64,000 nucleotides of DNA from positions 62,001-126,000 of the forward strand of contig NZ_JAQZAL010000011.1 in the NCBI RefSeq assembly GCF_028737205.1, given 5' to 3'. A program made the translations under genes and the position numbers. The notes under the pieces were generated by a model. It searched no databases. It saw only the letters and a list, made by a program, of their open reading frames with translations, and had not been told where the DNA came from. Of this stretch, positions 9,800 to 63,122 are shown in pieces; positions within the stretch are counted from its first letter, which is position 1; each line of letters starts with the position of its first letter. Origin of the DNA: Actinomycetospora lutea (GTDB lineage: Bacteria > Actinomycetota > Actinomycetes > Mycobacteriales > Pseudonocardiaceae).

Positions 9800-9813
9800 G
9801 GCACCCTGGTCCC
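9800..9813. promoter_or_regulatory. Weak DosR-like box
   Basis: GGCACCCTGGTCCC is an imperfect copy of the 14-bp motif that recurs through this window, 34 bases before the small DUF3040 gene at 9847. Several mismatches make it a weak candidate. Confidence 0.25.
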
Positions 9814-9846
9814 CGATCGATGCCGGAGGACCGGGGGTGCAGCACC

Positions 9847-10152
9847 GTGACGACCGAGCCGACGCGGCCCGAACCCGCCCGGCCCCTCAGCGAGCAGGAG
9901 AAGGCGGTGCTCGCGCGGCTCGCGGCCGACCTGGAGCCCGACACCACCGGGGCCGGCGACGACTCCCGCCCGGAGGCCCGGCGGGCGCCGGCGCCGAGGC
10001 CCTCGGCGCGTCTCGCCCTCCAGGTGCTGGTGGTGGTCGTGCTGGCCGCCGTCCTCATGCCCAGCGTGTGGGTGGGCGTCGTGCTCGCGGTGGTCGTGCT
10101 CAGCGGCCCGGCCGCGGCGACGTGGTGGGAGCTGCGGTCCCGACGGCGCTGA
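9847..10152 (+). CDS. DUF3040-type small membrane protein
   Basis: The 101-residue protein has the DUF3040 pattern: a short helix PLSEQEKAVLARLAADLE, a basic linker, then two adjacent transmembrane segments (LALQVLVVVVLAAVLM and WVGVVLAVVVLSGPAA) and a basic end RSRRR. The function is unknown and the family is actinobacterial. The GTG start overlaps no neighbour. A second DUF3040 gene lies at 12584. Confidence 0.65.
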   Translation: MTTEPTRPEPARPLSEQEKAVLARLAADLEPDTTGAGDDSRPEARRAPAPRPSARLALQVLVVVVLAAVLMPSVWVGVVLAVVVLSGPAAATWWELRSRRR

Positions 10153-10203
10153 CGGTGCCGAGCAGCATGTGGGGCACCCACGCCCGCGGGGAACAGGGAG
10201 GAC

Positions 10204-10671
10204 GTGGCGGCCCGCGGCGTGACCCCCGACGTGACCGCTGACGAGTGGCGGGCGACCCTCCTCCTGCCCGGCCGCACGGTCGTGCGGGGCCGGGGCGTGC
10301 AGCATCCGCTGCCCCGCGGCGGTCTCCCGGAGTTCGGCCTCTACCTCGGCGTCGAGTACGCACCCTCGTGGCCGCACCGGTGGCTGGACTGGCCCGACTT
10401 CGGCGTCCCGGCCGACCCCCTCGACGCGGCCCGGGCCATCGCCCAGCTCCACCGGCGCGCCCGCGCGGGACGGCGGGTCGAGGCCGCGTGCCGCGCGGGC
10501 AAGGGACGCACGGGCACCGTGATCGCCTGTCTGGCGATCCTCGACGGGCTCGCGGTCGAGCACGCGGTGAGCTGGACCCGGCAGCACTTCCACCACCGCG
10601 CGGTGCAGACCCCGTGGCAGCGACGGTGGGTCCGGGACTTCCCCGAGCTGCTCGAGCACGCGTCCCGGTAG
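10204..10671 (+). CDS. Protein-tyrosine-phosphatase-like protein
   Basis: The 155-residue protein carries a CX5R phosphatase loop, C96-R-A-G-K-G-R102-T-G-T, with the usual helix after it (VIACLAILDG) and a C-terminal WQRRWVRDF segment. A plausible general-acid Asp lies in WLDWPDFGVPAD. It is small for a classical tyrosine phosphatase and resembles compact dual-specificity enzymes. It starts with GTG at 10204. The substrate is unknown. Confidence 0.75.
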   Translation: MAARGVTPDVTADEWRATLLLPGRTVVRGRGVQHPLPRGGLPEFGLYLGVEYAPSWPHRWLDWPDFGVPADPLDAARAIAQLHRRARAGRRVEAACRAGKGRTGTVIACLAILDGLAVEHAVSWTRQHFHHRAVQTPWQRRWVRDFPELLEHASR

Positions 10672-10762
10672 GCGGACCGGCCACCGCGGCGTTCGGAGGC
10701 GACAATTACTTCCCTCATCCCAGCGCCGCCTGCCCCTGACGGCGTCGGAGACTCGGTAGGCG

Positions 10763-14362: not shown

Positions 14363-15220
14363 TCACCGGCGGGCCCCGTCGAGCACACCGGGGGTGACCA
14401 GGTCGGGCGTCCAGTCCGGGGACACGATCACCACCGGACACCGGGCCCGGACGGCCAGCCCGCGTCGGGTGCTGTGCCGCGGGTGGCGCCACCCGTGCTC
14501 TCCCCCGAGGACGACGAGCTCGGCGTCGTCGGCCTGTTCCGCGATGACCCGGTCCGCCCGCTCCTCGGCCAGGACGACCTGCAGCGCGGGCGGACGGTCG
14601 GTGCCGACGTCCGGGAGCTCCTCGGACAGGAGGCGGGCGTCGGGCCCGGCTCGCACCACGACGAGCGGGACACCGCGCACCGCGGCGCGACGGGTGGCGA
14701 ACCGCAGGGCGCCTCGACAGCCCTCGGTGCCGTCGTCGCCGACCACGACCACATCCCGTGGGGCGCGCGCCCCGGTCGTCGCCGGCGGCACGACCGCGAC
14801 CGGGACGTCGACGTGCCCGACCAGACCGTGGGCGACGCCGCGGAGCGCGACCTCGCCGAGGGCGCCGGAGCCGTGGCTACCGACCACGATCATCGACGCC
14901 CCGCGCGCCTGGGCCCGCAGCACGGCGACCGGGTCGCTCTCGACGACGGTCTCGTCCACCGCGAGCCCGGGAGCCATGGCCCGGGTCGCCTCGGCCGTCG
15001 CGTGGAGCTCGGCCCGAGCCCGGCCGAACAGGCCCGGGCCGGCGTCGACGCCGGCCGCGGACCGGCCCGGGTAGGTCCCGAGCGGTGCGCAGAGCCCGTG
15101 CACCAGGTGCAGGGCGAGGCCCTGCTCCTGCGCCTCGGCCGCCGCCCAGCGCACCGCGGCGTCGCTGCGTCCCTCGAGCGACACCCCGACGACCAGGGCA
15201 CCGTCGGGATTCCTGGTCAC
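14363..15220 (-). CDS. Tandem universal stress protein
   Basis: The 285-residue protein has two USP domains. The first (1-145) has VVGVSLEGRSDAAVRWAAAE and SMIVVGSHGSGALGEVALRG with a partial nucleotide-loop motif. The second (155-285) has DVVVVGDDGTEGCRGALRFA and a degenerate loop (VVLGGEHGWRHPRHS). The GTG start overlaps the stop of the flavodoxin gene by four bases (GTGA), so the two are translationally coupled. Confidence 0.85.
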   Translation of the reverse strand: MTRNPDGALVVGVSLEGRSDAAVRWAAAEAQEQGLALHLVHGLCAPLGTYPGRSAAGVDAGPGLFGRARAELHATAEATRAMAPGLAVDETVVESDPVAVLRAQARGASMIVVGSHGSGALGEVALRGVAHGLVGHVDVPVAVVPPATTGARAPRDVVVVGDDGTEGCRGALRFATRRAAVRGVPLVVVRAGPDARLLSEELPDVGTDRPPALQVVLAEERADRVIAEQADDAELVVLGGEHGWRHPRHSTRRGLAVRARCPVVIVSPDWTPDLVTPGVLDGARR

Positions 15221-15744
15221 GACCCACCGCCGGCCGGGACGGCCGCGGCGGCGGCGAGCGCCGTGCCCCAGGCGCGGGCCCGCTCGAGCTCGCCGGGCGA
15301 GAGCGGCCCGTCCGTGCCCTCGACGTAGAAGCTGTGCGGCCCGTCGACCGCGATCGCGCCGCCGCGCCGGAGGCGACGGCGGATCGCGCGCGCCGCCGAG
15401 CCCGGCACGCGGGGGTGTCCGACGCGGGTGTCGAAGGCCGCGGCGCGCAGGCCGGGGCGCGCCGGCAGGGCCGCGAGCCACTCCCGCACGCCCGGCCCCC
15501 GGGACACCAGCGCGCCCTCGGCCTTCGTCGCCGCGTCGCGCCGCGTCGAGGCCCGGGTCATCCCGAACGCATGGGTCGGCCCGCCGACGACGAGGAGGTC
15601 GACGTCGTCGCCCGGCGTCGACGGGGCGGCACCGACCTCCACCACGTCGACCGGCACGCCGGTGGCGAGACCGTCGGCGATCGCGCGGGCGATCGCCTCG
15701 GTGTTGCCGTACATCGATTCGAAGACCACCAGGGCCCGGGTCAT
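15217..15744 (-). CDS. Flavodoxin-family protein
   Basis: The 175-residue protein starts with the FMN-phosphate loop MTRALVVFESMYGNTEAIARAI (residues 1-22), then VDLLVVGGPTHAFGMTR and an AAAFDTRV strand. This matches flavodoxin/FMN-binding domain proteins of actinobacteria. It probably transfers electrons or protects against oxidative stress in the cytoplasm. AAGGAGGTG precedes the ATG. It is the first gene of a two-gene unit with a tandem USP. Weak DosR-like sites lie upstream. Confidence 0.85.
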   Translation of the reverse strand: MTRALVVFESMYGNTEAIARAIADGLATGVPVDVVEVGAAPSTPGDDVDLLVVGGPTHAFGMTRASTRRDAATKAEGALVSRGPGVREWLAALPARPGLRAAAFDTRVGHPRVPGSAARAIRRRLRRGGAIAVDGPHSFYVEGTDGPLSPGELERARAWGTALAAAAAVPAGGGS

Positions 15745-15798
15745 GACCCACCTCCTTCGCGACGCGCCCACCGTCGGCGCGCGGCCGGTCGCACGGCA

Positions 15799-15812
15799 GG
15801 GTCGAACGGACC
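15799..15812. promoter_or_regulatory. Weak DosR-like box
   Basis: GGGTCGAACGGACC is a diverged copy of the recurrent motif, 55 bases upstream of the flavodoxin ATG. It is weaker than the copy at 15855. Confidence 0.25.
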
Positions 15813-15854
15813 GCGGGGCGGGGCCGACCGTCGATCCGGTCGGGCCGCCGCGAG

Positions 15855-15903: not shown

Positions 15904-16335
15904 ATGACGACGCGATCATCTGCCGACGACACGACCCCGCGCCTCGACCCGAGCCGCCCGGTGCGGGTCGTCGGTGAGCACGTCATCGTCGCCGAGGCGC
16001 TGCGCGTGATGCGGGTGGCCGACGTGCGCCACCTCCCCGTGGTCGCCGATGGGCTCTGCGTCGGGCTGCTGCTCGAACGCGACCTCATCGCGGCCGCCGT
16101 CGACGGGGTCACCGGACCGGTCGGCCGTCTGGCCCGGCGTCCGGTGCCCACGGTCGAGGTCGACGCCACGACGCCCCGCCGGGCTCGCGCCGTCCTGGCC
16201 GGTGGGCTCGACGCCGCGCTCGTCACCGACGGCGGCGTCGTCGTCGGGATCGTCACCGCCACCGACGCGCTCGCCGCCCTCGCCGCCGCCGACGAGCCGG
16301 GCGACGCGGAGCGCCCGACCGAGGAGTCACCGTGA
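15904..16335 (+). CDS. Two-CBS-domain protein
   Basis: The 143-residue protein has paired CBS motifs: VRVVGEHVIVAEALRVMRV with DVRHLPVVADGLCVGLLLER, and VEVDATTPRRARAVLAGGLD with AALVTDGGVVVGIVTATDAL. CBS pairs bind adenine nucleotides and act as energy sensors. The ATG at 15904 is used; it lies 36 bases after a DosR-like box. Its stop overlaps the next GTG start by four bases, coupling it to the membrane protein at 16332. Confidence 0.8.
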   Translation: MTTRSSADDTTPRLDPSRPVRVVGEHVIVAEALRVMRVADVRHLPVVADGLCVGLLLERDLIAAAVDGVTGPVGRLARRPVPTVEVDATTPRRARAVLAGGLDAALVTDGGVVVGIVTATDALAALAAADEPGDAERPTEESP

Positions 16336-17910: not shown

Positions 17911-19398
17911 TCAGACCTCGACGACGGTCCAGGACCCGCGCCTCCCCGGTGCGCGCACGACGGAGAGCGCCGCGGTCACGGCGTCGTCGACGCTGCCCGC
18001 GGTGTCGACCGTCGTGGCCTCCGGCCAGGGATCCGCGTCGGCCGCCATGACCGCGGCCACCAGCGGGGTGGCGTCGGACGCCGCCCCGCGCCGTGCCCGG
18101 ATACGCGCGTCGGCGACGTCGCGGGGGGCCTCGCAGCGCAGCGGGATCACCGGGACGGAGCTGCGGGCCGCGAGGGCGTTCGCCGCCTCCCGAGGGGTGG
18201 CCGCGGTCCACGAGGCGTCGAGCACCACCGATTCGCCGCGGGCCAGGAGCCCCTGCGCCCGGTGGAGGAGCTCGTCGTAGGTGGCGGCCGTGTGCTCGGC
18301 GCGGTAGAGCCCACCGCGGTAGTCGGCGCCGGCCGGAGTGCCCGGGTCGATCCCGGCGATCTCCTTGCGCACGCGGTCGCTGGACAGCAGCGTCGCCCCG
18401 AGGCGGTCGGCGAGACCGCCGGCAACGGTGGTCTTGCCGGTTCCCGGCAGCCCCCCGACCAGGACCAGGCGCACCCGGCCGGCGTCGAGGTGCTCGGCGG
18501 CCAGGTCGAGCAGGTCGCGCGCGAGGGAGGCGCTCCCTCCGCCCTGGTCGACGCGGACGCACGTGACGGCCGAGCGGACCGCGGCGCGGTAGGCGACGAA
18601 GTGGTGGCGCAGTGCCGACGGCGCCGGGTCGTCGGCGAACTCGGCGTACCAGCCGAGGAAGCGGTCGGCGAGCGCGGCACCACGGTCACCCCCGAGGCGC
18701 TCGAGGTCCATCGCGAGGAACGCCGCGTCGTCGAGACCGTCCACGAAGCGCAGCCGGTCGTCGAACTCGAGGCAGTCCAGCACCACGGGGCCCCCGGGCA
18801 GGCAGAACACGTCGTCGGCGAGCAGGTCGCCGTGCCCGTCCACCACCCGGCCGTCGGCCCGACGCAGGTCGAACAGGGCCCGACGCCCGGCGAGGAAGGC
18901 CTCCGCGTCCGCGGCGACCCGATCGACGAGATCCGCGGGCAGGACGGTCCCGACGTGGCGGCGGAGACCGTCGAGCACGCCGGACCAGCGCAGGCGGGCC
19001 GCCTCGAGCGTGCCCTCGCGGTCCACCTCCTGGCCGTGGGCGGCGCCGCTGTGGAACGCCGCGAGACGCCGCGCGAGGGCCCGGAGGTCGTCGTCGACCG
19101 GCTCCCCCGCCTGCACCAGGGCGGCGAGCCTGCGCTCGCCGGGCATCCGTCGCATCGCGACCATGTACTCGGCGGCCAGCCCGTCGGGGCCGATGAGGGT
19201 CTCGAGACCGAGATAGGCCTCGGGACTGAGCCTGCGGTTCAGGGCGATCTCCCGCAGGCACGCCTCCCGGCGCCGGGCGAGGGTCGTGAAGTCGCAGAAC
19301 CCGAGGTCGACCGGCTTCTTCATCTTGTGCACGCGATCGCCGGCGAACCACAGGATCGCGGTGTGCGTCTCGACCACCGCCGGGGCGGTGTCGCTCAC
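17911..19398 (-). CDS. Bifunctional phosphotransferase-like / P-loop kinase protein
   Basis: The 495-residue protein has two domains. Residues 1-320 are an aminoglycoside-phosphotransferase-like fold (WFAGDRVHKMKKPVDLGF, catalytic-loop-like VVDGHGDLLADDVF, then VVLDCLEFDDRLRFVDGLDD). Residues 325-490 are a P-loop kinase of the gluconokinase/zeta-toxin type (Walker A VGGLPGTGKTTVAGGLAD, ESVVLDASW). Such AAA-family ATPase proteins are common beside stress genes in actinobacteria; the substrate is unknown. The GTG start at 19398 overlaps the preceding USP stop by four bases. It is the last gene of a USP-USP-kinase operon. Confidence 0.8.
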   Translation of the reverse strand: MSDTAPAVVETHTAILWFAGDRVHKMKKPVDLGFCDFTTLARRREACLREIALNRRLSPEAYLGLETLIGPDGLAAEYMVAMRRMPGERRLAALVQAGEPVDDDLRALARRLAAFHSGAAHGQEVDREGTLEAARLRWSGVLDGLRRHVGTVLPADLVDRVAADAEAFLAGRRALFDLRRADGRVVDGHGDLLADDVFCLPGGPVVLDCLEFDDRLRFVDGLDDAAFLAMDLERLGGDRGAALADRFLGWYAEFADDPAPSALRHHFVAYRAAVRSAVTCVRVDQGGGSASLARDLLDLAAEHLDAGRVRLVLVGGLPGTGKTTVAGGLADRLGATLLSSDRVRKEIAGIDPGTPAGADYRGGLYRAEHTAATYDELLHRAQGLLARGESVVLDASWTAATPREAANALAARSSVPVIPLRCEAPRDVADARIRARRGAASDATPLVAAVMAADADPWPEATTVDTAGSVDDAVTAALSVVRAPGRRGSWTVVEV

Positions 19399-20270
19399 GG
19401 CGCGCTCCCCCCGACGGCGGCGTGGCTCGGAGTCCCGGTGCGCCCGAGCGGGCCGAGGACGGCCACTGGGCACGGCGGCGCGGTGAGCACCGAGAGGGCC
19501 GTGGAGCCCGGGCCGCGGAGGGTGGCGGCACCGTCGCGGCGGTGTCCGATGACGAGCTCGTCGGCTCCGGCGCCCCGGGCCAGGAGGGCCCGGGCCGGGC
19601 GGTCGGCGACCACCTCGGTGCTGACGGGCACGTCGGGGCCGTACCGGCGGGCGGCCGCGACCAGGTCGTCGAGCTCGCGTCGGGCCCGGGCGAGCTCGGC
19701 GTCGGGCACCTCGGCGGTCTCGGCGCCCGCGACGGGCGGCACCACGCGCACGGCCTCGACCGGGGCACCGAGTCCCGCCGCGGCCCGGAGGGCGTGGGCC
19801 AGCACCGCGGGGGCGGAGGGCCCGCCGTCCACCCCGACGACGACCGCGCGCCGGACGGCCGTGTCCGGCGGCGTCGGTCCGCGGTACTCCGGGACCACCA
19901 GCACCGGGCAGGGCGCGGCGACCACGACCCGCTCGGTGAGGTGACCGGCCTCGCCGGCGAGGCGCCGGTGCCGGTCGCCGAGGACCAGGAGCGACCCGGC
20001 GCCGCAGGCGCCGACGAGGAGGGCGAGCGCGTCGCCGGCGCGGCACAGGAGGGACACCTCGAGGTCGGGGGCCGTCCGGGTCAGGTACGCCTCGGCGCGC
20101 TGCCCGGCGTCGTCGGACCAGGGCCCGGGCGGTGTCTCGGGGCCGTGGGCGTGCACGAGCGTGACGGCGACGGCGCGCGACCGTGCCTCGGCGACCGCCC
20201 GGTCGAGCACGCGCGGCCGCAGCAGGCCGTCACCGACCCCGACGACGACCGGGTCGGTCCCGGCCCTCAT
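19395..20270 (-). CDS. Tandem universal stress protein
   Basis: The 291-residue protein has two USP folds: PVVVGVGDGLLRPRVLDRAV with LLVLGDRHRRLAG, and AVVVGVDGGPSAPAVLAHAL with ELVIGHRRDGAATLRG. Both nucleotide loops deviate from the GxxG-x9-G(S/T) consensus, so ATP binding is doubtful. It is coupled by ATGA overlap to the upstream USP gene and by GTGA to the downstream kinase gene. Confidence 0.85.
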   Translation of the reverse strand: MRAGTDPVVVGVGDGLLRPRVLDRAVAEARSRAVAVTLVHAHGPETPPGPWSDDAGQRAEAYLTRTAPDLEVSLLCRAGDALALLVGACGAGSLLVLGDRHRRLAGEAGHLTERVVVAAPCPVLVVPEYRGPTPPDTAVRRAVVVGVDGGPSAPAVLAHALRAAAGLGAPVEAVRVVPPVAGAETAEVPDAELARARRELDDLVAAARRYGPDVPVSTEVVADRPARALLARGAGADELVIGHRRDGAATLRGPGSTALSVLTAPPCPVAVLGPLGRTGTPSHAAVGGSAP

Positions 20271-21260: not shown

Positions 21261-21280
21261 TTCCCGCCCGAGACCCCCGG

Positions 21281-21294
21281 GGGCCGGAGGTCCC
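21281..21294. promoter_or_regulatory. DosR-like box, strong copy
   Basis: GGGCCGGAGGTCCC matches both arms fully and lies 124 bases upstream of the ATG at 21157. The two boxes are 34 bp apart. Confidence 0.6.
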
Positions 21295-21306
21295 GTCCGT
21301 TCCGCC

Positions 21307-33337: not shown

Positions 33338-33338
33338 C

Positions 33339-52768: not shown

Positions 52769-53032
52769 TCACCCGACGCCCGCGGCCACGAGGAACGCGG
52801 CGGCATCCCTCACCGTGCGCAGGCGGGGGTAGTCGTCCTCGTCGATGCGGACCTCGGCCGATCGGGCGAGGTGCTCGACGAAGGACAGGAAGTCCAGCGA
52901 GTCCAGCTCCAGGGCGTCCCGGAAGTCGTCGCCGTCGTCGAGGGCGTCGAGATCGGGGCCCGGGGCGACGCGGGCCAGGCCGGCGCGCACGAGCTCGCGG
53001 GCGCGGCGGGTGGCGGGGTCCACGGATGTCAT
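52769..53032 (-). CDS. Acyl carrier protein
   Basis: The 87-residue acidic four-helix protein has a phosphopantetheine attachment Ser45 in the motif ALELDSLDFLSFVEHLA. The ATG overlaps the E2 stop by four bases, so it belongs to the dehydrogenase operon. An ACP here suggests acyl transfer from the E2 lipoyl arm or from the acyl-CoA synthetase to ACP. Confidence 0.9.
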   Translation of the reverse strand: MTSVDPATRRARELVRAGLARVAPGPDLDALDDGDDFRDALELDSLDFLSFVEHLARSAEVRIDEDDYPRLRTVRDAAAFLVAAGVG

Positions 53033-54357
53033 GACCACTCCTCGGGGTCGTGCAGGACGTCGTCGATCACGTGCAGGAAGCGCCCGCCGACGACGCCGTC
53101 GGTGGCCCGGTGGTCGCCCGTGAGCGTCGCCGCCACGGTCGGGCGCACGCCCAGCAGGTCGCCCTCGGCCCACGGCCGGCGGACGATCGCTCCGAAGCCG
53201 ACGAGCGCCACCTGCGGCGGGAAGATCCGGCCGTGCACCGCGTGCCCGCCCGTCTCGCCGAGGTCGGTGACCGTGATGCTGGCGTCGACGGCGTCGGAGC
53301 TGCGCAGGCGGCCGGCGCGGGCGCGGGTGACCGCGTCGCGCAGCGCGGTCATGGCCTCGGGCAGGGTCAGCTCGTCGGCGGCCGGGATCGTGGGCACGAG
53401 CAACCCGCCCTCGCGCAGGGACACGACGACGCCCAGGTCGACCGTCGGGGACGGCGCGAAGGCGCCGTCGACCCAGTGACCGTTGAGCGCGGGGACCCGG
53501 CGCGCGGCCCGGGCGGCGGCGACCAGGAGCAGCGCCGCGGGCACGATCCGCTCCGTGACCGCAGCACGACGGTTGCGCTCGCGCAGGCCCTCGAGCGCCG
53601 CACCCAGCTCGATCACGGCGTCGACGTGGTACTGGGGGATCTCGCGCAACGAGCGGTTCATGCGCGCGGCGATGGCCGCGCGCATGCCGTCGCTCGTCGC
53701 CCGTGGCGGGGGCTCCTCGGCCGGTGCCACGACCTCCCGCGCGGGGGTGGGCGCCGAGGCGGAGGGTCCGTCCGGGACGTCCCGGGCCCGCACGACGCCG
53801 TCGGGGCCCGGGCGCAGGGCCTCCGCCCCCGTGCCGCGCTCGGCGGCGAGCCGACGCGCGTACGGGGTGATCGGGAGACGGGCCGGGGCCGGGGCCGAGG
53901 AAGGGGCCGGGGCCGGGGAAGGGGCCGGGGCCGGGGAAGGGGCCGGGGCCTCGAGCGCGGCCCGGACATCGGCCCGGGTGACGGTGCCGTCGTGACCGCT
54001 ACCGGGCAGGTCCGCGACGTCGAGCCCGTGCCGTTTCGCGAACTGGCGCACCGGTGGTGTCGCCCGCGGGTGCGGGGCCGGGGCCTGCTGATCCGCGGAG
54101 GGAGCATCGGTCGGGCCGCTCCGGTCGGTCGCGATGACGGCGAGCGGCGCGCCCACGGGGACCTTCGTCCCCACGGGGACGAGCAGGCGCTCGACGACGC
54201 CGTCCTCGAAGCACTCCACGTCGATGACCGACTTCTCGGTCTCCACCGCCGCGACGATGTCCCCGCGACGGACCCGGTCCCCGGGCGCCACCGCCCACTC
54301 GACGACCGTCCCGGCGTCCATGTCCGCCCCGAGCGAGGGCATGAGGAACTCGCCCAC
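53029..54357 (-). CDS. 2-oxoacid dehydrogenase E2 (dihydrolipoamide acyltransferase)
   Basis: The 442-residue E2 protein has a lipoyl domain (residues 1-80; K42 in VETEKSVIDVE), two E3/E1-binding peripheral domains (about 98-135 and 160-195) joined by an Ala/Pro linker made by 18-bp repeats, and a C-terminal catalytic acyltransferase domain with DHRATDG. It is the core of a pyruvate/acetoin/branched-chain type complex. E1beta ends three bases before it; the ACP overlaps its end. Confidence 0.93.
   Translation of the reverse strand: MGEFLMPSLGADMDAGTVVEWAVAPGDRVRRGDIVAAVETEKSVIDVECFEDGVVERLLVPVGTKVPVGAPLAVIATDRSGPTDAPSADQQAPAPHPRATPPVRQFAKRHGLDVADLPGSGHDGTVTRADVRAALEAPAPSPAPAPSPAPAPSSAPAPARLPITPYARRLAAERGTGAEALRPGPDGVVRARDVPDGPSASAPTPAREVVAPAEEPPPRATSDGMRAAIAARMNRSLREIPQYHVDAVIELGAALEGLRERNRRAAVTERIVPAALLLVAAARAARRVPALNGHWVDGAFAPSPTVDLGVVVSLREGGLLVPTIPAADELTLPEAMTALRDAVTRARAGRLRSSDAVDASITVTDLGETGGHAVHGRIFPPQVALVGFGAIVRRPWAEGDLLGVRPTVAATLTGDHRATDGVVGGRFLHVIDDVLHDPEEWS
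53901..53950. repeat. 18-bp tandem repeat in the E2 linker
   Basis: The unit AAGGGGCCGGGGCCGGGG is repeated nearly three times and encodes the Ser-Pro-Ala-rich linker between the two peripheral-binding domains. Confidence 0.8.
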
Positions 54358-54360
54358 GCC

Positions 54361-55371
54361 TCAACCCACCGTCCGGCGCGCCGCGGCCACGACGTCGTCC
54401 ACCGCGGGGAGCGCCGCCCGCTCCAGGTGCACGGCGTAGGGCACGGGCACCTCCGCGGAGCACACGCGCTCGGGCGGGGCGTCGAGGTCGTAGAAGGCGT
54501 GCTCCGCGACGCGGGCGGCGACCTCGGCGGCGAGGCTCCCGCTGCGCCAGCCCTCGTCGACCACGACGAGGCGGTGGGTGCGGCGCACGGAGGCGAGCAC
54601 GGTGTCCTCGTCCAACGGCCGCAGCGAGCGGAGGTCGACGACCTCGGCGCTCGTCCCCTCCCCGGCGAGGTGCTCCGCGGCCGCGAGGGCGGTCGGGAGC
54701 ATGCCGCCGTAGGTCACCAGGGAGACGTCCGTCCCGGCCCGGCGCACCGCGGCCCCGTCGAGGCCGACCGCCGCGCCGCCGGCGTCCCCCTCGGTCGCGT
54801 AGAGACCGGCGTGCTCGAAGACCAGCACCGGGTCCGGGCTGGCCAGTGCCGGGGCGAGCATGCCGCGCGCGTCGGCGACCGTGGCCGGGGCCACCACGCG
54901 CAGGCCCGGGATGTGGGCGTACCAGCCCTCGAGGCTGTGCGAGTGCTGCGCGGCGAGCTGCCGCCCGGCCCCCGTGGTCATCCGGATCACCAGGGGCACC
55001 GCGAGCTGGCCGCCCGACATGTGCGAGAGGGTCGCGGCGTTGTTCAGGATCTGGTCGAGCGCGAGCAGGCTGAAGTTGACCGTCATGATCTCGACGATCG
55101 GTCGCAGTCCGCCGAGTGCCGCGCCGATGCCGGCGCCGACGAAGGCCGACTCGGACAGGGGGGTGTCGCGCACCCGCTCCGGGCCGAACTCCTCGAGCAG
55201 GCCGAGGCTCACCGCGAAGCAGCCCCCGTAGCGGCCCACGTCCTCCCCCATCAGGAACACCCGCTCGTCGGCGCGCAGCGCCTCCCGCAGCGCCTCCCGC
55301 AGTGCCTCGCGGTAGGTCGACCGGGCGGTGGCGGCGGCGGGGTCGACGGCGGGGTCGGTCGCGGCGCTCAC
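54361..55371 (-). CDS. 2-oxoacid dehydrogenase E1 component, beta subunit
   Basis: The 336-residue protein has the transketolase central and C-terminal folds: [60 protein letters not shown], and LHSHSLEG-type [17 protein letters not shown]. It forms the heterotetramer with E1alpha. The GTG overlaps the E1alpha stop (GTGA). Confidence 0.93.
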
Positions 55372-56336
55372 GACGGCTCCGCGTAGACGAAGCGTGTGAG
55401 CTCCTCCACCGGCTCGACCGGCGCCGCCTCGGCGGCGGCGACCGCCTGCTCGATCTCCTCGTCGACGTCGGCGACGATCCGGGCCCACCCGTCCTCGTCG
55501 AGGTCGCCGTCGGCCACCAGCAGGTCCCGCCAGCGGTCGACCGGGTCCCGGTCCTTCCACCGCGCCACCTCGGCGCGGTCGCGGTAGCGGTCCGGGTCGT
55601 ACATCGAGTGCGCCCGGAACCGGTAGGTCCGCAGCTCGAGGAAGCACGGCCCGCTCCCCGCGCGGACGCCCGTGACGGCCCTCTCGGCGGCTGCCGCGAC
55701 GGCCTGCACGTCCATGCCGTCCACGGGCCACGCGGGCATGCCGTACGCGGCGGCGCGCAGGGCGAGGTCGGTCTGGGCGTGCTCGCGCTCGAGGGCGGTC
55801 CCCATCGCGTACCGGTTGTTCTCGCAGCAGAAGACGACGGGCAGGCGCCAGAGAGCGGCGAGGTTCAGGCACTCGTGGAACTCGCCCTCGGCCACCGCGC
55901 CGTCACCGAACAGGCAGGCGGTGACCGCGGAACGGCCGGCGAGCGCGTCGGCGAGGGCGAGGCCGGTGGCGACCGGCAGACCGCCGCCGACGATCGCGTT
56001 GCCCCCGTAGAAGCGGCGCGCGGCGTCGAACAGGTGCATCGAGCCGCCCCGTCCCCGGCTGCACCCGGAGGCGCGCCCGAACATCTCGGCGAGGATCGAC
56101 GTCATCGGCACACCCCGGGCCAGCGCGTGGCCGTGCTCGCGGTAGGTGGACACGACGGCGTCCTCCGGGGCGAGCGCACCCAGCACCCCGACCGCCACGG
56201 CCTCCTCGCCGATGCACAGGTGCATGAACCCGCGGATCCGTTCCGTGCTGTAGAGCTCGACGCAGCGTTCCTCGAAGCGTCGGATGCGCACCATCTCGTG
56301 CAGGAGCGTGCGCCGGACGTCCACCGGTGCGGTCAT
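55368..56336 (-). CDS. 2-oxoacid dehydrogenase E1 component, alpha subunit
   Basis: The 322-residue ThDP enzyme subunit has [39 protein letters not shown], the ThDP motif [19 protein letters not shown] to [10 protein letters not shown], and [12 protein letters not shown]. It is acetoin- or pyruvate-dehydrogenase-like. The ATG overlaps the acyl-CoA synthetase stop (ATGA). Confidence 0.93.
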
Positions 56337-58108
56337 GGGGTCTCCACGGTCGAGAGGTCGCCCTCGGGCAGGCCGAGCTCGCGGGCCTTGAGGAGCCGCC
56401 GCAGGATCTTCCCGCTGCGGGTGTGGGGCAGGTGCGGGTCGACGGCGAGCTCCTTCGGCGCCACGCTGCCGAGGCGCCGGCGGGCGAACGCGAGCAGCTC
56501 GTCGTGCAGCGCGTCGCCGGGCTCCCAGCCGGGGCGCAGGGTCACGAAGGCCTTGACGAGCTCGCCCGCCATCGGGTCGGGCTTGCCGATGACGGCGGCC
56601 TCCGCCACCGCCGGGTGGGACATGAGCACGCTCTCCACCTCGAAGGGACCCACGAGGTGGCCGGCGGTCTTGATGACGTCGTCCGCGCGGCCGGCGAACC
56701 AGAACCACCCGTCGGCGTCGCGCCGCACGACGTCGCCGGTGAGGTACCAGCCGCCGGCGAAGGACGCCGCGTACCGCTCGTCGGCGTGCAGGTAGCCACG
56801 GAACAGCGAGGGCCAGCCGACCCGCAACGCGAGCTCGCCGTCGGTGTCGGGGGTGGTCAGCTCACGGACGCCCCCCTCGACCCGCAGCGCCCGGCCGTCG
56901 GGCCCCCGCTCGAGGACCGCGGCCTCGATCCCCGGCAGGGGCCGCCCCATCGACCCGGGCCGGATGTCCTCGGCGGCGAAGTTGCTGATCATGATGGCGC
57001 CCGTCTCGGTCTGCCACCAGTTGTCGTGGACCGGGGTGCCGAGCACGTCCGCCGACCACCGGACGACCTCCGCGTTGAGGGGCTCGCCGACGCTGGCGAC
57101 GTGCCGCAACGCCGAGAGGTCGTGGCGGGCGGCCGCGTCGGCGCCGTGCTTGGCGAGCATGCGCAACGCGGTCGGGGCCGTGTACCAGACCGTGACGCGG
57201 TGCTCGGCCAGGACCGCGTACCACCGCTCGGCGTCGAAGTCGCCCTCGTCGACCAGGAGCGTGGCGCCGTGGGTGAGGGGCGCGACGATCCCGTACGAGG
57301 TGCCGGTGACCCAACCGGGATCCGCGGTGCACCAGAAGACGTCGTCGGCGCCGAGGTCCAGCGCGGCGGTCGCGGTCGCGTGATGGGCGACCACCGCGTC
57401 GTGGACGTGCACGGCACCTTTCGGCCGGCCGGTCGTGCCGCTCGTGAAGTGCAGCAGCGCCGTGTCCTCGGGATCCGTCGGCGGGATGGTGAACTCCTCC
57501 CCCACCGCGGCGAGGACGTTCTCCAGCGAGGTGAAGCCCTCCTCCCCGTCGTCGGGTCCGGCCGCGGGCTCGCCGGTGAGCAGGACGTGCTGCAGGGCCG
57601 GGAGGGTGTCGCGGGCCGGGCGCACCCGACGCTCGTAGAGCCGGGGCGTCGTCACCAGCACCCGGCCCTCCCCGAGCCGGAGGCGTTCGGCCACGGGCTC
57701 CGGCCCGAAGGCCGAGAACAGCGGCGACAGCACGCACCCCGCCTTCAGCGTCCCCAGCGCCGCCACGTAGAGGTCCAGCGTGCGCGGCAGCAGGGTGAAC
57801 ACCCGGTCGCCGCGTTCCACACCCAGGGCGACCAGGGCGTTCGCGAAGCGGTTGGTCCGGCGCTGCAGCTCGGCGTAGGTGATGTCGGTGGTCGTCCCGT
57901 CCCGACCGAGCACCCGCAGCGCGACCGTCCGTCCCCGCGCCGCGACGTGCCGGTCGACCGCCTCGTGCGCGATGTTGAGACCGCGTCCGTCCGGCAGCCC
58001 GCTCATCTGCGCCCGTGCCGCGCCCCAGGAGAACGTCGCTCGTGCGCCGGCGTAGTCCGGCATCCGCGCGGCACGGCGCACGGAGTCCGGCTTCACGATC
58101 GTCTCCAC
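56333..58108 (-). CDS. AMP-forming acetyl-/acyl-CoA synthetase
   Basis: The 591-residue ANL enzyme has [71 protein letters not shown] and the catalytic Lys in [11 protein letters not shown]-like [12 protein letters not shown]. It is most like acetyl-CoA synthetase. GTG at 58108 is used (GGAGGGG upstream). It is the first gene of a five-gene operon with E1alpha, E1beta, E2 and ACP. A strong DosR-like box lies 78 bases upstream. Confidence 0.9.
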
Positions 58109-58185
58109 GCCGCCCCTCCCGCCTCGACCCCCGGTCCGGCGGTCGTCCCGGGCACGACTGTCGCGACGGCCGCGCTCCCGTGTCA

Positions 58186-58199
58186 GGGACGAACGGCCC
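58186..58199. promoter_or_regulatory. DosR-like box, strong copy
   Basis: GGGACGAACGGCCC lies between divergent starts, 78 bases from the acyl-CoA synthetase and 81 bases from the small gene at 58280. Confidence 0.55.
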
Positions 58200-58279
58200 G
58201 TTCGGTGACGTCGCCGGGCCCTGCCACGGGACGTGGCGGCACCTGAGGGTCGACGGTGCGAGCAGGAGGAGGAGTCGTC

Positions 58280-58558
58280 ATGGAGCACCCGACGGAACAC
58301 ACGACCGGGGACGTCGAGGAGACGGCGCGGGAGGTGCTCGCCCGTCTCGAGGAGCTGGTCGCCGTCACGCGCCGCATCGACGCGCGGCTGGAGCGCCTGG
58401 AGCGCCGAGAGCAGCGGACGTGGCTGCCCGGCGACCGCGAACCGTTCCCCCCGGACACCGAGATCGGGAGACCGCGGCGCCTGACCCTCACCCGGACCCT
58501 GACCGGGGCGGCACGGGCCGGCGCCGTGGACGCCGTCGGCCGGGCGGGCGCCACCTGA
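58280..58558 (+). CDS. Small coiled-coil hypothetical protein
   Basis: The 92-residue protein has a probable coiled coil ([34 protein letters not shown]) and a basic C-terminal tail ([18 protein letters not shown]). GGAGGAGG precedes the ATG. No family recognised. It is divergent from the acyl-CoA synthetase operon and shares the DosR-like box. Confidence 0.6.
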
Positions 58559-58758: not shown

Positions 58759-59013
58759 TCAGGCGGACCGGCGCAGACGCTCCCGCGCGAGACGCTCGAG
58801 CAGTTCGGGCAGGGCACCGGGTGGCACCCCGTCCAGCTCGCGCCGGCACCGGACGACGGTCGCCGAGACGACCGCGACGTGGTGGCCGGGGAACTCCGCC
58901 GCCAGCCGCGCCACGGCGTGCGGAACGGTTCCCCCGTCGCTGCGGGTGCCGGCCAGGCCGGCGTCCTCGCCGGACGGACCCGGCCAGGGGTGGAGCGGGA
59001 GCGGAGCAGTCAT
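58759..59013 (-). CDS. Small helical hypothetical protein (three-helix type)
   Basis: The 84-residue protein has a disordered Pro/Gly N-terminus, then VPHAVARLAAEFPGHHVAVV and SATVVRCRRELDGVPPGALP with LPELLERLARERLRRS. This resembles the short three-helix dimerisation-type proteins frequent in actinobacteria. A strong DosR-like box lies 87 bases upstream of the ATG. Confidence 0.6.
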   Translation of the reverse strand: MTAPLPLHPWPGPSGEDAGLAGTRSDGGTVPHAVARLAAEFPGHHVAVVSATVVRCRRELDGVPPGALPELLERLARERLRRSA

Positions 59014-59064: not shown

Positions 59065-59099
59065 GTCCCGACCGTCGTGCGTTCGGCGGCGTCGCACCA

Positions 59100-59113
59100 G
59101 GGCCGAACGTCCC
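59100..59113. promoter_or_regulatory. DosR-like box, strong copy
   Basis: GGGCCGAACGTCCC, one mismatch to the best copies, lies 87 bases upstream of the gene at 59013. Confidence 0.55.
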
Positions 59114-59137
59114 GGACCGGACGATCGCCGCCGGGGG

Positions 59138-59768: not shown

Positions 59769-60239
59769 TCAGCCCTTCTCGATGGCGATCGTGGTGGGTT
59801 CGGACGCCTTCTCGGGCTCGGGCATCGGCACGCGCACCGTGAGCATCCCGTCCTTGTAGGACGCGGTCACCGCCGCCGGGTCCACGCCGTCGGGCAACGG
59901 CAGGCGCCGGGCGAAGGTGCCGTAGCGCAGCTCGTGCCGGTGGTAGCCCTTGTCCTCGGTGTCCTCGGTGACCTTCCGCTCCGCGCGCAGCATCAGCATG
60001 CCGTCCGCGACGGTCAGCTCCAGATCCTTCTCCGGGTCGATCCCGGGCATCTCGGCCTTGATCACCAGGTCGCCGTCCTCCCGGTACTCGTCGACCTTGA
60101 TGACCTCCTCGGGGGCCCGCAGGGCGGGCTGGTCCCAGCTCCGCGCGGGGAACGCGCGCATCCAGTCGTCGAACATGCGGTCGAACTGCCGGAAGACGTC
60201 GGCCGAGCTCATGGGGGTCTGGCGTCGGATGATTGACAT
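59769..60239 (-). CDS. Hsp20-family small heat-shock protein (HspX/Acr-like)
   Basis: The 156-residue protein has an N-terminal FRQFDRMFDDWMRAFPARSW, an alpha-crystallin domain (VIKVDEYREDGDLVIKAEMP, GTFARRLPLPDGVDPAAVTA, SYKDGMLTVRVPMPE) and a short tail with TIAIEKG. It is an ATP-independent holdase that oligomerises. HspX (Rv2031c) is the hallmark DosR target in mycobacteria. GGAGGTGGAGAAC precedes the ATG. A strong DosR-like box lies 51 bases upstream. Confidence 0.95.
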   Translation of the reverse strand: MSIIRRQTPMSSADVFRQFDRMFDDWMRAFPARSWDQPALRAPEEVIKVDEYREDGDLVIKAEMPGIDPEKDLELTVADGMLMLRAERKVTEDTEDKGYHRHELRYGTFARRLPLPDGVDPAAVTASYKDGMLTVRVPMPEPEKASEPTTIAIEKG

Positions 60240-60289
60240 GTTCTCCACCTCCGTCCCCGACGTTGCGCGGCCTGCACCGCGGTGCTCCA

Positions 60290-60303
60290 GGGACCAAGGG
60301 CCC
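60290..60303. promoter_or_regulatory. DosR-like box upstream of Hsp20
   Basis: GGGACCAAGGGCCC has both arms intact and lies 51 bases before the hsp20 ATG, near the position expected for a site overlapping the -35 region. Confidence 0.65.
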
Positions 60304-60415
60304 GTGACGGCCGCCCCTCCGGACCCCCGCGCAGGGTGCCTGAGGCCGTGTCGACGGCACGGCGTGCCCCCGAGCGTGGTCTCGCCCCGCACCACCCCCC
60401 GGGGGGAGAGACGCC

Positions 60416-61900
60416 GTGGACCAGGGCGACGCCCGCAGCGACCAGGTCGCCGGACGGTACCGGCTCGGACGCCTCCTGACCGCCGATCGACGGCGACGGG
60501 TGCACGAGGGGTGGGACACGCGGCTGCTGCGCACCGTCGCGGTCGTCCTGGTCGCGCCGGCGGCCGGGACCGACCCCGATCCGACCCTGCCACCCTCGCC
60601 GGTGACGCCCGTCCACCTGCACCGCCCCGGGCTCGTGGAGCTCTACGACGGCGGGGTGCACGGCGACGAGGTCTTCCTGATCTGCCAGCGCATCCCCGGT
60701 CCCACCCTCGCGACCGTGCTGGCCCGACCGTGGACCGTGGTCCAGCTCGCCGACCTCGTCCACCGGCTCGCGCGGACCCTCGAGCCGGTGCACCGGTCCG
60801 GGGCGGCCCACGGCGCCCTGACCCCTGACCGGATCCTGCTCGGGGGCGCCCGTCCCATGATCGCCGAGTGCGGTGTCGCCGCCCTCGTCGAGCGGTGGTC
60901 GGGCCTGCCCGACGACACGCACTACCGGGCACCGGAGCAGTCGGCCGGTGAGACCGGTCCGCCGGCGGACGTCTTCGCGCTCGGGCGCATCCTCCTCGAG
61001 GCGCGGCGGCGCGCGATCGCCCCGGGCGCGCGCGACCTGCGTGTCCTCGCCGCCCGCATGACCGCCACCGACCCCGCGGCCCGCCCGGACGTCCGGGAGG
61101 TCGCCACGGTCCTCGCCGCGTGCCGCGACCGCGCGGCCGGCGATCCCGCCGTCCGGGCCCGCCGGACCGGGCACCCGACCCGCGTCCTGGCCGCCACGGC
61201 GACCGCCGCGGGCCTGGTCCTGGGCGGGTCGGCGGCGCTGGGAGCCGTCGCCCCCGTCCTCGGCGGGGGCTCGGCCCTCGTCGCCCCGCCCGAGCCGGCG
61301 CTGCGCGATCCGGGACCGATGCTGACGCACGGCCGGCTCCCCACGGCGGCCGCGCCCGTGATTCCCGCGGCCGATGACGCGTCCCCGGTCGGCGGGCCCA
61401 CGCGCACCGGGACGGCGCGTACCGGGGAGAGGACCGCCCGGACCGGCAACGGGCGACCGACCTCGGCGGAGCCGGCGTCCGCGGTACCGGCGCGGATCGA
61501 GCTCACGCCGGGCCCGACCACCGCGCGACCCACCACCGCGCGACCCACCACCGCGCGGCCCACCACGGCGCGGCCCACCACGGCGCGACCCACCACGGCG
61601 CGACCCACCACGGACCGACCCACCACGGCTCGGACGACCACCGCCCGACCGCGCACCGCGCCGACCACCGCGCCGACCACCGCGCCGCGCGCGGCACGGG
61701 CGGAACGTCCGGTCCGCCCTCCCGCGGCTCCTCGCGGGACGGGAACCGGTGCGACGACCACGACGTCCCGGGCTCCTCGGCCGGACTCCGCCCCGAGCAC
61801 CGACCGGACCACGGGCCGGCCCGGCAGCCCGACCACCGGCCCGACCACCAGCCGGACCAGCGCCCCACCCCCCGGAGGGGCCACCACCGACGCGCGGTGA
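60416..61900 (+). CDS. Ser/Thr pseudokinase with TM segment and PTTAR-repeat tail
   Basis: The 494-residue protein resembles a PknB-type receptor kinase but lacks catalytic residues. The Gly-rich loop is missing, the VAIK Lys is replaced (TVAVVLVAP), the HRD loop reads AHGALTPDRILL, and DFG reads AECG. The structural APE motif (YRAPEQ) and the PADVFALGRIL helix remain. A membrane segment lies near 265-290, then an extracytoplasmic Thr/Pro-rich tail with nine 5-residue PTTAR-type repeats. It probably has a scaffold or ligand-sensing role rather than phosphorylation. GTG start. Confidence 0.8.
   Translation: MDQGDARSDQVAGRYRLGRLLTADRRRRVHEGWDTRLLRTVAVVLVAPAAGTDPDPTLPPSPVTPVHLHRPGLVELYDGGVHGDEVFLICQRIPGPTLATVLARPWTVVQLADLVHRLARTLEPVHRSGAAHGALTPDRILLGGARPMIAECGVAALVERWSGLPDDTHYRAPEQSAGETGPPADVFALGRILLEARRRAIAPGARDLRVLAARMTATDPAARPDVREVATVLAACRDRAAGDPAVRARRTGHPTRVLAATATAAGLVLGGSAALGAVAPVLGGGSALVAPPEPALRDPGPMLTHGRLPTAAAPVIPAADDASPVGGPTRTGTARTGERTARTGNGRPTSAEPASAVPARIELTPGPTTARPTTARPTTARPTTARPTTARPTTARPTTDRPTTARTTTARPRTAPTTAPTTAPRAARAERPVRPPAAPRGTGTGATTTTSRAPRPDSAPSTDRTTGRPGSPTTGPTTSRTSAPPPGGATTDAR
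61514..61648 (+). repeat. Nine 15-bp repeats encoding PTTAR
   Basis: The 15-bp unit (CCC ACC ACC/ACG GCG CGA) is repeated nine times with small changes (one PTTDR, one TTTAR) in the pseudokinase tail. Copy number may vary between strains. Confidence 0.9.
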
Positions 61901-61912
61901 GCCGTCGGCCGC

Positions 61913-62692
61913 TCAGGGGCGCGGCTCGGGAGCAGGGGGCGCCGGGCCCGTCTCCACGTCGACGAGCACGGTGCGTCCGCGCTCGTCGAGGTGCACGACC
62001 CGCGCCCGTCCGACGGCCGGATCGTGGAAGAACAGGAACGGCAGGGCGCCGAGCCGCAGGTGCTCCACCGCCCCCTCGGGCCCGGTCGTCCGCGCGGCAC
62101 GGGCGCTGACGGTCGTGCCGGCCGCCCCGGGGGGTTCCGGCGCGGACCCGTCGTCGACCGCGACCCGCCGGCCGGTGGGCCCGCCGCGGTAGACGACCGC
62201 GCGGCGCCCGGAGGACCGTTCCACGAAGAGGTGGAAGGCCTCCTCCCGGTCCTCCATGATCGCGACGGCCTCCGGCACCGAGGTGGGCACCGCCAGCACG
62301 ACGTCGTGCCGGTCGATCGTGCCGTCCACGGCGGCGGGGTCCGGCGCGCCGGCGCGCCGGGGGTGCGCCCGGGCGTGGGCGTCGCCCACCTGGCGGCGCA
62401 GCCGGTCGACGAGCAGGTCCACGGCCTCGCGGGGTGTCGCGGCCACGACGTGGGCGTGCAGGCGGCGACCGGCGAGGTCGACGTGGGCGATCGCCACCAC
62501 CGGCCTCTCGCGGGCCGGGTCGTCGTGGCGCACGATGCGGACGCGGGCCGGTCCGACGGGGTGCACGCCGTGATCGAGGGCGTGCACCACCTTCTCCCGG
62601 GCGTACTCGGCGAGGCCGGTGCCGATCATGCCGCGGAGCTCGACGACGGGCGGGGGGACGCGGGTGGCCGGCGGGCGGTGCGGCGAGGTCAT
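61913..62692 (-). CDS. Ribosome hibernation factor-like protein (HPF/S30AE family)
   Basis: The 259-residue protein has an N-terminal S30AE-like domain (GLAEYAREKVVHALDHGVHP, VARVRIVRH-type VGPARVRIVRHDDPARERPV, LHAHVVAATPREAVDLLVDR LRRQV) and two C-terminal hibernation-type domains (VPEAVAIMEDREEAFHLFVE RSSGR; RLGALPFLFFHDPAVGRARV). It should bind the 30S subunit and silence translation in dormancy, like Rv0079/HPF of mycobacteria. The ATG overlaps the stop of the DUF1876 gene. Confidence 0.85.
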   Translation of the reverse strand: MTSPHRPPATRVPPPVVELRGMIGTGLAEYAREKVVHALDHGVHPVGPARVRIVRHDDPARERPVVAIAHVDLAGRRLHAHVVAATPREAVDLLVDRLRRQVGDAHARAHPRRAGAPDPAAVDGTIDRHDVVLAVPTSVPEAVAIMEDREEAFHLFVERSSGRRAVVYRGGPTGRRVAVDDGSAPEPPGAAGTTVSARAARTTGPEGAVEHLRLGALPFLFFHDPAVGRARVVHLDERGRTVLVDVETGPAPPAPEPRP

Positions 62693-63051
62693 GACGTCGA
62701 CGCCGTGCCGCGCCCCGTGACCGGGGCCGGGTCCCCCGGCGGCCTCCCGCCGGCCGGGACCCCGCCGAGGGCGGGTCGTCCGTAGGCGTTCGCGAAGGCG
62801 TCGTCGACGGCGTGGTCACCGAGACGGTGACCGAGCTCGACGAGCGCCCGCGCCGCGGCCATCTGCCGGCCGATGACCACCACGGAGGGGTGGTCGGGCC
62901 AGCGCACGGCCCGCCCCTCGGCGGCGAGCACCTCCCCCGGCCCGAGGACGTCGTCGGGCCTGCTGTCGAGGACGGCGCGCGCCCAGGTCGCGCCGTCGTC
63001 CCCCGCCTCGTCCTCGAAGGTCACGGTGACCGTCCAGCTCCTCGTCGTCAT
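62689..63051 (-). CDS. DUF1876-domain protein (Rv1738/Rv2632c-like)
   Basis: The 120-residue protein has a DUF1876 core (SWTVTVTFEDEAGDDGATWA, VVVIGRQMAAARALVELGHR LGDHA) and a Gly/Pro tail. The mycobacterial relative Rv1738 is strongly DosR-induced and has structural likeness to ribosome hibernation factors. It is the first gene of a unit with the HPF-like gene (ATGA overlap). A strong DosR-like box lies 58 bases upstream. Confidence 0.88.
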   Translation of the reverse strand: MTTRSWTVTVTFEDEAGDDGATWARAVLDSRPDDVLGPGEVLAAEGRAVRWPDHPSVVVIGRQMAAARALVELGHRLGDHAVDDAFANAYGRPALGGVPAGGRPPGDPAPVTGRGTASTS

Positions 63052-63108
63052 GCCCCGACCGTGACTCCCTCGCGGCCGGGGCGGAGGGGGCTCCCGACCC
63101 CCGTGGCG

Positions 63109-63122
63109 GGGCCGGAGGTCCC
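63109..63122. promoter_or_regulatory. DosR-like box, strong copy
   Basis: GGGCCGGAGGTCCC lies 58 bases before the DUF1876 ATG. The same sequence occurs at 21281. Confidence 0.6.

Follow-up and report, generated by a model that had tools for sequence, protein, structure and literature searches.

Introduction

Which regulator would read the short, nearly palindromic boxes that stand before stress, nitrate and universal stress protein (USP) genes in one stretch of the genome of the soil actinobacterium Actinomycetospora lutea, and how far does the gene set that carries them extend? The stretch analysed (the window, 64,000 nucleotides) comprises positions 62001-126000 of C9, a contig of 194,082 bp; the genome amounts to 6.53 Mb in 106 contigs. 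A preliminary description had read most of it as a DosR-like dormancy island of roughly 50 kb. We observed the boxes, their placement in gaps, their partial conservation in relatives, and genes for a DosR-type regulator and a DosS-type kinase on the same contig. The window very probably forms the left portion of a dormancy regulon of the DosR/OsdR type, gathered into one island of about 116 kb that would all be under the same DosS/DosR control. Numbers without prefix are window positions; window-equivalent coordinates are those of C9 shifted to window position 1.

Placement of the boxes

Genes were called with our own GC-frame caller in two runs, which disagree around 22751-24535, so that intergenic counts may be slightly off. 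All nine positions named in the preliminary description carry a box and all are intergenic by these calls, the 14-mer being exact at 21281, 26594, 28115, 43542 and 63109 and differing by one mismatch at 36496, 58186, 59100 and 60290. The estimate of about 20 copies in gaps was broadly borne out: 20 copies in the window deviate at no more than one position, 8 of them being exact, and 17 of these 20 are intergenic, in a window of which 10.9% is intergenic (binomial p = 4e-14). It is the placement and clustering of the boxes, rather than their genome-wide abundance, that constitutes the signal. Contig C9, with 3.0% of the genome, holds 16 of the 21 exact copies (p = 6.5e-21) and 46 of the 336 near copies, against 10 expected; with the window left out as the source of the motif, it still holds 8 of the 13 remaining exact copies. 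Five exact copies lie on other contigs, four of them in intergenic DNA. The 17 of 20 intergenic copies and the 16 of 21 exact copies on C9 also answer the possibility, raised beforehand, that the motif might be equally common in coding DNA or randomly placed in the genome: it is neither.

A word count to which no motif was supplied, and which is independent of any matrix, returned GGGACnnnnGGCCC as top word, level with CAGGnnnnnnnGTCC, which is this box read on the opposite strand; GGGACnnnnGGCCC occurred in 16 of 85 island gaps versus none of 152 background gaps. Split-trained matrices are nearly independent, their seed word coming from the whole-island word count. At most one site per gap was used, one side of the window edge serving for training and the other for testing, and the background for these and the density tests consisted of 15 of 20 genome stretches (290 kb), five contigs of 1-3 kb having been dropped. 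The gain of these matrices varies with the cut-off. Trained on gaps right of the window, the matrix found 32 window matches at score 11 (23 intergenic) versus 4.9 expected, 77 versus 37 at score 8, and 18 versus 2 at score 13. The window-trained matrix found 46 matches on the right side versus 21 expected at score 11 and 24 versus 4.2 at score 13; left of the window it found 7 versus 3.8 at score 13. Since matches are plentiful to the right and few to the left, the left border of the box-rich part is placed near window 15.8 kb; on the right this part reaches the contig end, which cuts it (C9:77796-193503). The extent of roughly 50 kb given earlier was therefore too small. A solitary strong pair of boxes (15.5, 21.4) stands about 60 kb left of the island at C9:14572-14614 (L001), between a gene whose start resembles that of window gene 27403-28005 and another gene.

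The final matrix was derived from intergenic sites of the island. The sites noted under the earlier consensus GGGACC-NN-CGGCCC stand, and the consensus itself is improved to the near-palindrome cCGGGAC(C/G)TTCGgCCCtg. At a score of at least 13, this matrix has, within window 9-64 kb, 24 matches in 6,050 intergenic bases and 4 in 48,950 coding bases, compared with 1 in 37,925 and 9 in 252,839, respectively, elsewhere; these densities, as well as the layout counts for C9:71000-194000 given next, are not independent of the matrix, because it was built from island sites. Among gaps of at least 50 bp, 16 of 20 divergent, 23 of 49 tandem and none of 10 convergent ones hold a site, and a start codon lies within 300 bp of 52 of the 53 intergenic sites scoring at least 13 (median 84 bp). 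Over C9 and five relatives, neighbour spacings of 21-23 bp account for 44 of 153 pair counts versus 9 expected if spacing were even, a pair of two strong sites entering the count twice; lesser piles lie near 13-14, 34-36 and 43-46 bp. The 21-23 bp spacing fits dimers sitting side by side, as a cooperative dimeric activator would. Closely packed sites are bound cooperatively by M. tuberculosis DevR (PMC3029386, available in part). A GC artefact as source of the motif was considered separately and rejected on the intergenic densities given above.

Regulator and kinase genes

The window contains neither a DosR nor a DosS gene, as the preliminary description had correctly stated; both stand just outside it on C9. 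The DosR-type regulator that it had proposed to locate is encoded at C9:155839-156486 (window-equivalent 93839-94486; minus strand, 215 amino acids), 29.8 kb past the right window edge. Its best PDB match is M. tuberculosis DevR 3c3w (E = 1.6e-88), ungapped over residues 1-210, and the closest proteins in named genomes are those of A. callitridis (89%), A. soli (82%) and A. succinea (76%); NCBIfam gave no equivalog above cut-off. The protein retains D54 together with K179, K182 and N183, the last three of which we take to be DNA-contact residues of DevR. D54 is the phospho-acceptor of DevR (PMC3029386, available in part). The box of the gene itself, CCCGGGACGTTCGACCCTGC, lies 90 bp before the start and has the highest score of the contig (23.0), and a usp gene stands 102 bp upstream in the same direction. 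This orthologue with the strongest box of the contig, along with published OsdR sites that share the 14-mer, supports the DosR-like regulator postulated earlier.

The dosS gene lies 8.9 kb past the window at C9:134879-136612 (window-equivalent 72879-74612; minus strand, 577 amino acids) and has a box of 17.7 at -74. The GAF-A domain of the product matches DosT 2vzw best (E = 3e-50) and its ATPase domain DevS 3zxo, and the candidate heme histidine (HPPM), presumably the heme ligand, is present; the protein can be classed as a DosS/DosT-type GAF-GAF histidine kinase with a predicted heme GAF-A. Between dosS and a further DosS-like gene described below, DosS2, a GNAT and CoA-ligase-like fusion gene (C9:136798-139482; L005:10898-13582) shares its upstream box with dosS.

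From these genes and sites we infer DosR binding, an oxygen signal, activation and a corresponding physiology. The DosS heme-GAF kinase would sense the loss of oxygen (or nitric oxide or carbon monoxide) and phosphorylate DosR, and a dimer of phosphorylated DosR would bind cCGGGAC(C/G)TTCGgCCCtg, often with a further dimer on the same helix face at a distance of about 22 bp. Bound in this way, it would activate USP, CBS, nitrate-respiration, nitroreductase, chaperone, ribosome-protection, fermentation and lipid-storage genes as well as dosR itself.

Relatives in the genus and family

A DosR turned up in 12 of the 18 genomes of the genus and, at a stricter cut-off, in 142 of 200 family genomes, so that DosR itself is ordinary in the family. 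Exact sites were counted with single-site contigs left out and with the G009 sites numbering at least those counted. By this measure 11 of the 12 DosR-bearing genus genomes (all but G006) have 2 to 11 exact sites per 60 kb, and none of the three good assemblies in which DosR was not found (G005, G013, G017) has two in 60 kb (at most 1). Three further assemblies in which no DosR was found (G010, G011, G014) were not taken as negative controls because they are incomplete (59-84% complete); besides, G011 has DosS2 and G010 a DosS-like kinase. In 9 of the 11 genomes the cluster lies on the dosR contig, near dosR. The other two are G004, with an exact pair away from dosR, and G012, with dosR on another contig.

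The matrix at a score of at least 13 found 49 matches in 120 kb of G007, 35 in 80 kb of G003, 20 in 60 kb of G002, 21 in 40 kb of G001, 8 in 40 kb of G009, and 16 in 28 kb plus 7 in 20 kb of G012. It also found an island in G004 (30 matches in 120 kb) that exact-motif clustering alone had missed. The DosR-less G005 gave 4 matches in 80 kb (four 20-kb stretches), none intergenic. Pooled over five relatives, boxes precede 58 of the 94 matches of boxed C9 genes versus 26 of the 80 matches of C9 genes without a box (p = 1.4e-4). With the relatives taken singly, this gene-by-gene box conservation is clear only in G007 (p = 7e-5) and marginal in G003 (p = 0.048). Three of five relatives have a box before their dosR match, and the box of usp 42948-43439 recurs at 109-110 bp with a score of 19.7-19.8 in all three relatives with a reciprocal match.

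In a comparison of 80 loci, which covers DNA around dosR alone, at least 6 matches occurred in only 5 loci. Three of them, in Actinomadura litoris (L026), A. spongiicola (L071) and [Actinomadura] parvosata (L089), have 10, 11 and 8 matches, respectively, within about 18-21 kb around dosR versus 0-1.7 in shuffles; the others are Actinoallomurus L022 (6) and A. callitridis L015 (14).

Weighing the explanations

Several observations weigh against a single DosR regulon read from these boxes. When as many as two mismatches are allowed, 96 matches fall in the window versus 89.8 expected from shuffles, which is chance, so that the loose consensus is uninformative. Genome-wide there is no excess, the 21 exact copies and 336 with at most one mismatch comparing with 27 and 553 for the reversed control. 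The DosR-bearing genomes G006 (4 matches in 56 kb) and G016 (7 in 40 kb) have no dense island in the stretches examined. Gene-by-gene box conservation was not seen in G001, G002 and G009 (p = 0.45-1; few pairs). In G002 and G009 no box was found within 250 bp of dosR, which in G002 closely follows dosS. The matrix scan found no strong box directly before narG (best 9.8). Finally, a second DosR paralogue could bind the same boxes.

This second DosR, encoded on contig C51 (C51:93452-94075; L185:9450-10088), is the basis of the most serious alternative, namely that the boxes serve mainly the second DosR or are common to both, the island being a two-regulator regulon. It is 75% identical to the island DosR, with the same recognition-helix residues (EKT-KN), and its gene likewise has a box of this type (16.8). 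That box sits between its gene and cydA-, cydB- and cydDC-fusion-like genes, which stand head to head with it and are followed by a nitroreductase-like gene (L185:2534-9315; names read from N-termini). On the other side, the island DosR lies inside the island and carries the best box of the contig, and 6 of the 12 DosR-bearing genus genomes have, at the cut-off used, a single DosR, all six with at least 3 exact sites in 60 kb. We regard this alternative as rather unlikely.

It is far less probable that another NarL-type regulator binds the boxes. A second response regulator of this type is encoded at C9:40775-41428, and related half-sites are possible for NarL-subfamily regulators; however, that gene lies outside the box-rich part, the consensus agrees with published OsdR/DevR boxes, box strength is highest at dosR itself, and within the genus box clusters accompany the presence of DosR. 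A neutral pile-up of USP, CBS and stress genes, with the motif resulting from the GC content of 76% or from a promoter element repeated through duplication, would agree with the genome-wide counts, no higher than those of the reversed control, and with the many island genes from one family (USP), but it is hardly credible given one intergenic match in 37.9 kb elsewhere versus 24 in 6 kb here, the empty convergent gaps, the 22-bp spacing, the same motif before unrelated gene families, and the unclustered exact sites in the three good genus assemblies without DosR.

DosS2, a DosS paralogue without a kinase domain

The island on C9 includes a further DosS-like gene, DosS2, at C9:139562-140896 (L005:13662-14996; plus strand, 444 amino acids). 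It begins 79 bp after a box-bearing gene, with which it probably forms one operon, so that DosR would induce DosS2. Its product contains two GAF domains and ends after a helix pair aligned with the dimerisation/phospho-acceptor domain of DosS; the first GAF domain resembles DosT most closely (E = 1.3e-44), and Pfam found no kinase domain in the protein. At the phospho-acceptor position all 12 intact genus copies have Ser (8) or Asn (4), and from there to the stop they have 43-67 residues (12 of 12) versus 177-195 in six full kinases, namely those ending inside their locus (L189 and L194 were left out). The phospho-accepting histidine and the HATPase domain, by which a DosS/DosT kinase is recognised, are both absent from DosS2. 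We take H395 of M. tuberculosis DosS to be the His of LHDHV(I/L)QR. That kinase is phosphorylated on H395 (PMC13287260, available in part).

DosS2 was found in all 12 DosR-bearing genus genomes, intact in 11 and in two pieces in G016; neither DosR nor DosS2 was found in G005, G013 and G017. Outside the genus, the family matches listed are open frames of at least 512 amino acids, nearly all at least 548, like full kinases. The gene stands head to head with dosS-dosR in A. soli/G008 (A. soli, L014, and G008 being the same locus, counted once) and in G002. A second DosS2-like copy at C43:39702-40849 consists of two adjacent pieces near a contig end and is apparently broken. Six of the 8 copies aligned retain the candidate heme histidine (A. 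soli in an altered setting), and G002 and G009 have lost it, for which reason the conserved job of DosS2 may lie in the helix pair rather than in heme sensing. The terminal helix pair is visible in a structural model (mean pLDDT 74, pTM 0.55, 8 sequences). The 50 Foldseek matches listed for this model are GAF, PDE or phytochrome proteins, among them DosT/DosS GAF-A at 50-55% identity, and they do not address the hairpin. We suggest, with somewhat less than even confidence, that DosS2 is a regular kinase-dead sensor of the genus DosR module and acts as a feedback brake. Pairing with DosS via the hairpin, it could weaken, adjust or reset signalling through DosR.

Boxes and genes along the island

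The gene set had been called close to the mycobacterial DosR regulon, and USP, Acg nitroreductase, Hsp20, nitrate, Rv2632c-like, PfkB and WS/DGAT genes are indeed present. A box of 15.0 in the matrix scan (3063-3082, minus) stands before 2476-2991, left of the range of the preliminary description. After a USP gene (14363-15220, minus; PF00582), a box of 14.5 (15796-15815, minus) lies between divergent flavodoxin (15217-15744) and CBS (15961-16335) genes. Two USP genes (19395-20270 and 20270-21157, minus; PF00582) follow, with a box of 17.0 (21278-21297, minus; exact 14-mer at 21281) 130 bp before the second. Boxes of 14.0 and 17.8 (22162-22224) separate the divergent genes 21307-22086 (DUF6544) and 22257-22703, and a box of 14.8 with an exact 14-mer at 22725 (22722-22741, minus) lies where the surrounding gene call is uncertain. 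The box of 18.9 at 23557-23576 (minus), called coding in one of the two gene runs, precedes a CBS-USP gene (23741-24535, plus; PF00571, PF00582), whose G007 match has a similar box (19.2 at -86).

A box of 15.7 (25243-25262, plus) stands between divergent genes for a USP (24611-25156) and an Acg/Rv3131-family FMN oxidoreductase, or Acg-family nitroreductase (25312-26313, plus; NF047509, 266.8 bits versus a cut-off of 199). It is followed by a box of 22.4 (26591-26610, minus; exact 14-mer at 26594), 80 bp before a small open reading frame (26356-26520), and by one of 14.5 (27356-27375, plus), 132 bp before 26695-27234. The box of 17.9 at 28112-28131 (plus; exact 14-mer at 28115) lies between the divergent membrane-protein-like gene 27403-28005, the match of which is also preceded by a box in three of three relatives, and a narK-like MFS transporter gene (28236-29456, plus; PF07690). 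Next come narG (29681-33337, plus; TIGR01580, 1589 bits) and, named from position and sequence, narH (33339-35009), narJ (35006-35644) and narI (35641-36390), all plus; the 28112 box may serve the whole narK-like/narGHJI block (28236-36390). A pair of boxes spaced 22 bp (14.1 and 13.4; 36493-36534) precedes 36597-37076 (pyridoxamine-oxidase family), and one of 17.5 (37070-37089, plus) precedes 37138-38396 (small open reading frame, nitroreductase).

Further right, a P-type cation ATPase gene (38464-41241, plus; PF00689, PF00122) is followed by two USP genes from the family scan (41819-42826 and 42948-43439, minus), with a box of 19.8 (43539-43558, minus; exact 14-mer at 43542) about 109 bp before the second. 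Three boxes 21-22 bp apart (12.1, 12.0 and 13.7; 44902-44964) lie between divergent CBS (44409-44846) and MgtC/DUF4010 (45035-46348) genes, a box of 15.8 (46906-46925, minus) before USP 46364-46849, and one of 13.0 (48059-48078, plus) between divergent genes for a dehydrogenase (46949-47947) and a SHOCT-like protein (48159-48413). Two boxes 23 bp apart (13.9 and 16.5; 48499-48541, plus) precede CBS gene 48641-49072, whose match has a box in three of three relatives, one match being just 42% identical. A PfkB-family kinase gene (49545-50576, plus; PF00294) and a box of 16.7 (50570-50589, plus) before M50 protease 50646-51914 follow. Genes for an AMP-binding enzyme and for E1 alpha/beta and E2 of a 2-oxoacid dehydrogenase (53029-58108, minus; family scan) are followed by a box of 17.0 (58183-58202, minus) between the divergent genes 56333-58108 and 58280-58558.

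The right end of the window has a box of 22.7 (59097-59116, minus) before 58759-59013, an Hsp20/alpha-crystallin gene (59769-60239, minus; PF00011), and two boxes 14 bp apart (16.0 and 13.6; 60287-60320) between hsp20 and the kinase-like gene 60416-61900. A ribosome-hibernation-factor-like gene (61913-62692; PF16321) and a Rv2632c-like gene (62689-63051; PF08962), both minus, are followed by a box of 18.2 (63106-63125, minus; exact 14-mer at 63109) before the latter. A family search of the genome found two Rv2632c-like genes, one of them off the contig (C41). Right of the window the island has genes for WS/DGAT acyltransferases, phosphoketolase, acetate kinase, SpoIIAA-like proteins, another P-type ATPase and further USPs. 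The acetate kinase and phosphoketolase genes (C9:176723-180357; L007:10823-14457) offer a possible fermentative route to ATP, and a box at C9:176664, just left of them, lies upstream of the next gene.

Comparison with known systems

The order usp-dosR is presumably that of Rv3134c-devR in M. tuberculosis. The DevR/DosR-DevS-DosT system shares this upstream usp, a DosR aligned without gaps over 210 residues and a heme-GAF-type kinase, and the regulon shares Acg, Hsp20, Rv2632c-like, PfkB and WS/DGAT genes. Its targets are scattered over the genome, unlike the island here; moreover, the box here is GC-shifted, and a second DosR with a box stands beside cyd-like genes. Closely packed cooperative sites are common to both, spacing being read from sequence in our case (PMC3029386, available in part).

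The OsdKR system of S. coelicolor (SCO0203/SCO0204; PMC5069765, available in part) is similar in several respects. The OsdR consensus is AGGGCCGATCGGCCCT, and the sites at SCO0167 and SCO0216 (narG2) are AGGGACCTTCGGCCCC, which contains the 14-mer present at window 26594 and 43542; OsdR also bound the SCO5978-SCO5979 region, where the listed site contains the same 14-mer. Its core regulon SCO0167-SCO0219 likewise has the GGGACCTTCGGCCC box, a box before the regulator gene, and USP, nitroreductase, PNPOx-like, nitrate transporter/reductase, PPDK and dehydrogenase genes near the two-component genes. Box, regulator and island type are thus already known. In contrast to the OsdKR regulon, the island here covers about 116 kb with 53 intergenic sites scoring at least 13 right of window 9000, versus 27 low-cut-off elements in two SCO blocks, a rough comparison since matrices and cut-offs differ; here also the regulator and kinase genes stand apart and form no operon, and an ATPase-less DosS paralogue is present. 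The Actinomadura-type genomes L026, L071 and L089 resemble A. lutea in having box clusters around dosR.

Significance

A literature search that covered few subscription journals returned nothing relevant on such a system in the genus or family, and no description of a GAF-domain pseudokinase DosS for DosR systems. A wider search brought up chiefly papers on mycobacteria, together with the OsdR paper. What appears to be new here is a conserved DosS paralogue, DosS2, with predicted sensor domains and with neither the phospho-accepting histidine nor the ATPase domain. The DosR/OsdR dormancy system is extended to Actinomycetospora, with a regulon that is unusually concentrated, and an environmental organism becomes available in which box strength, spacing and gene content may be examined together. 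The presence or absence of DosR inside one genus, which box clustering largely follows, amounts to a natural experiment, and the ATPase-less DosS2 provides a testable idea of how oxygen sensing may be tuned in such modules.

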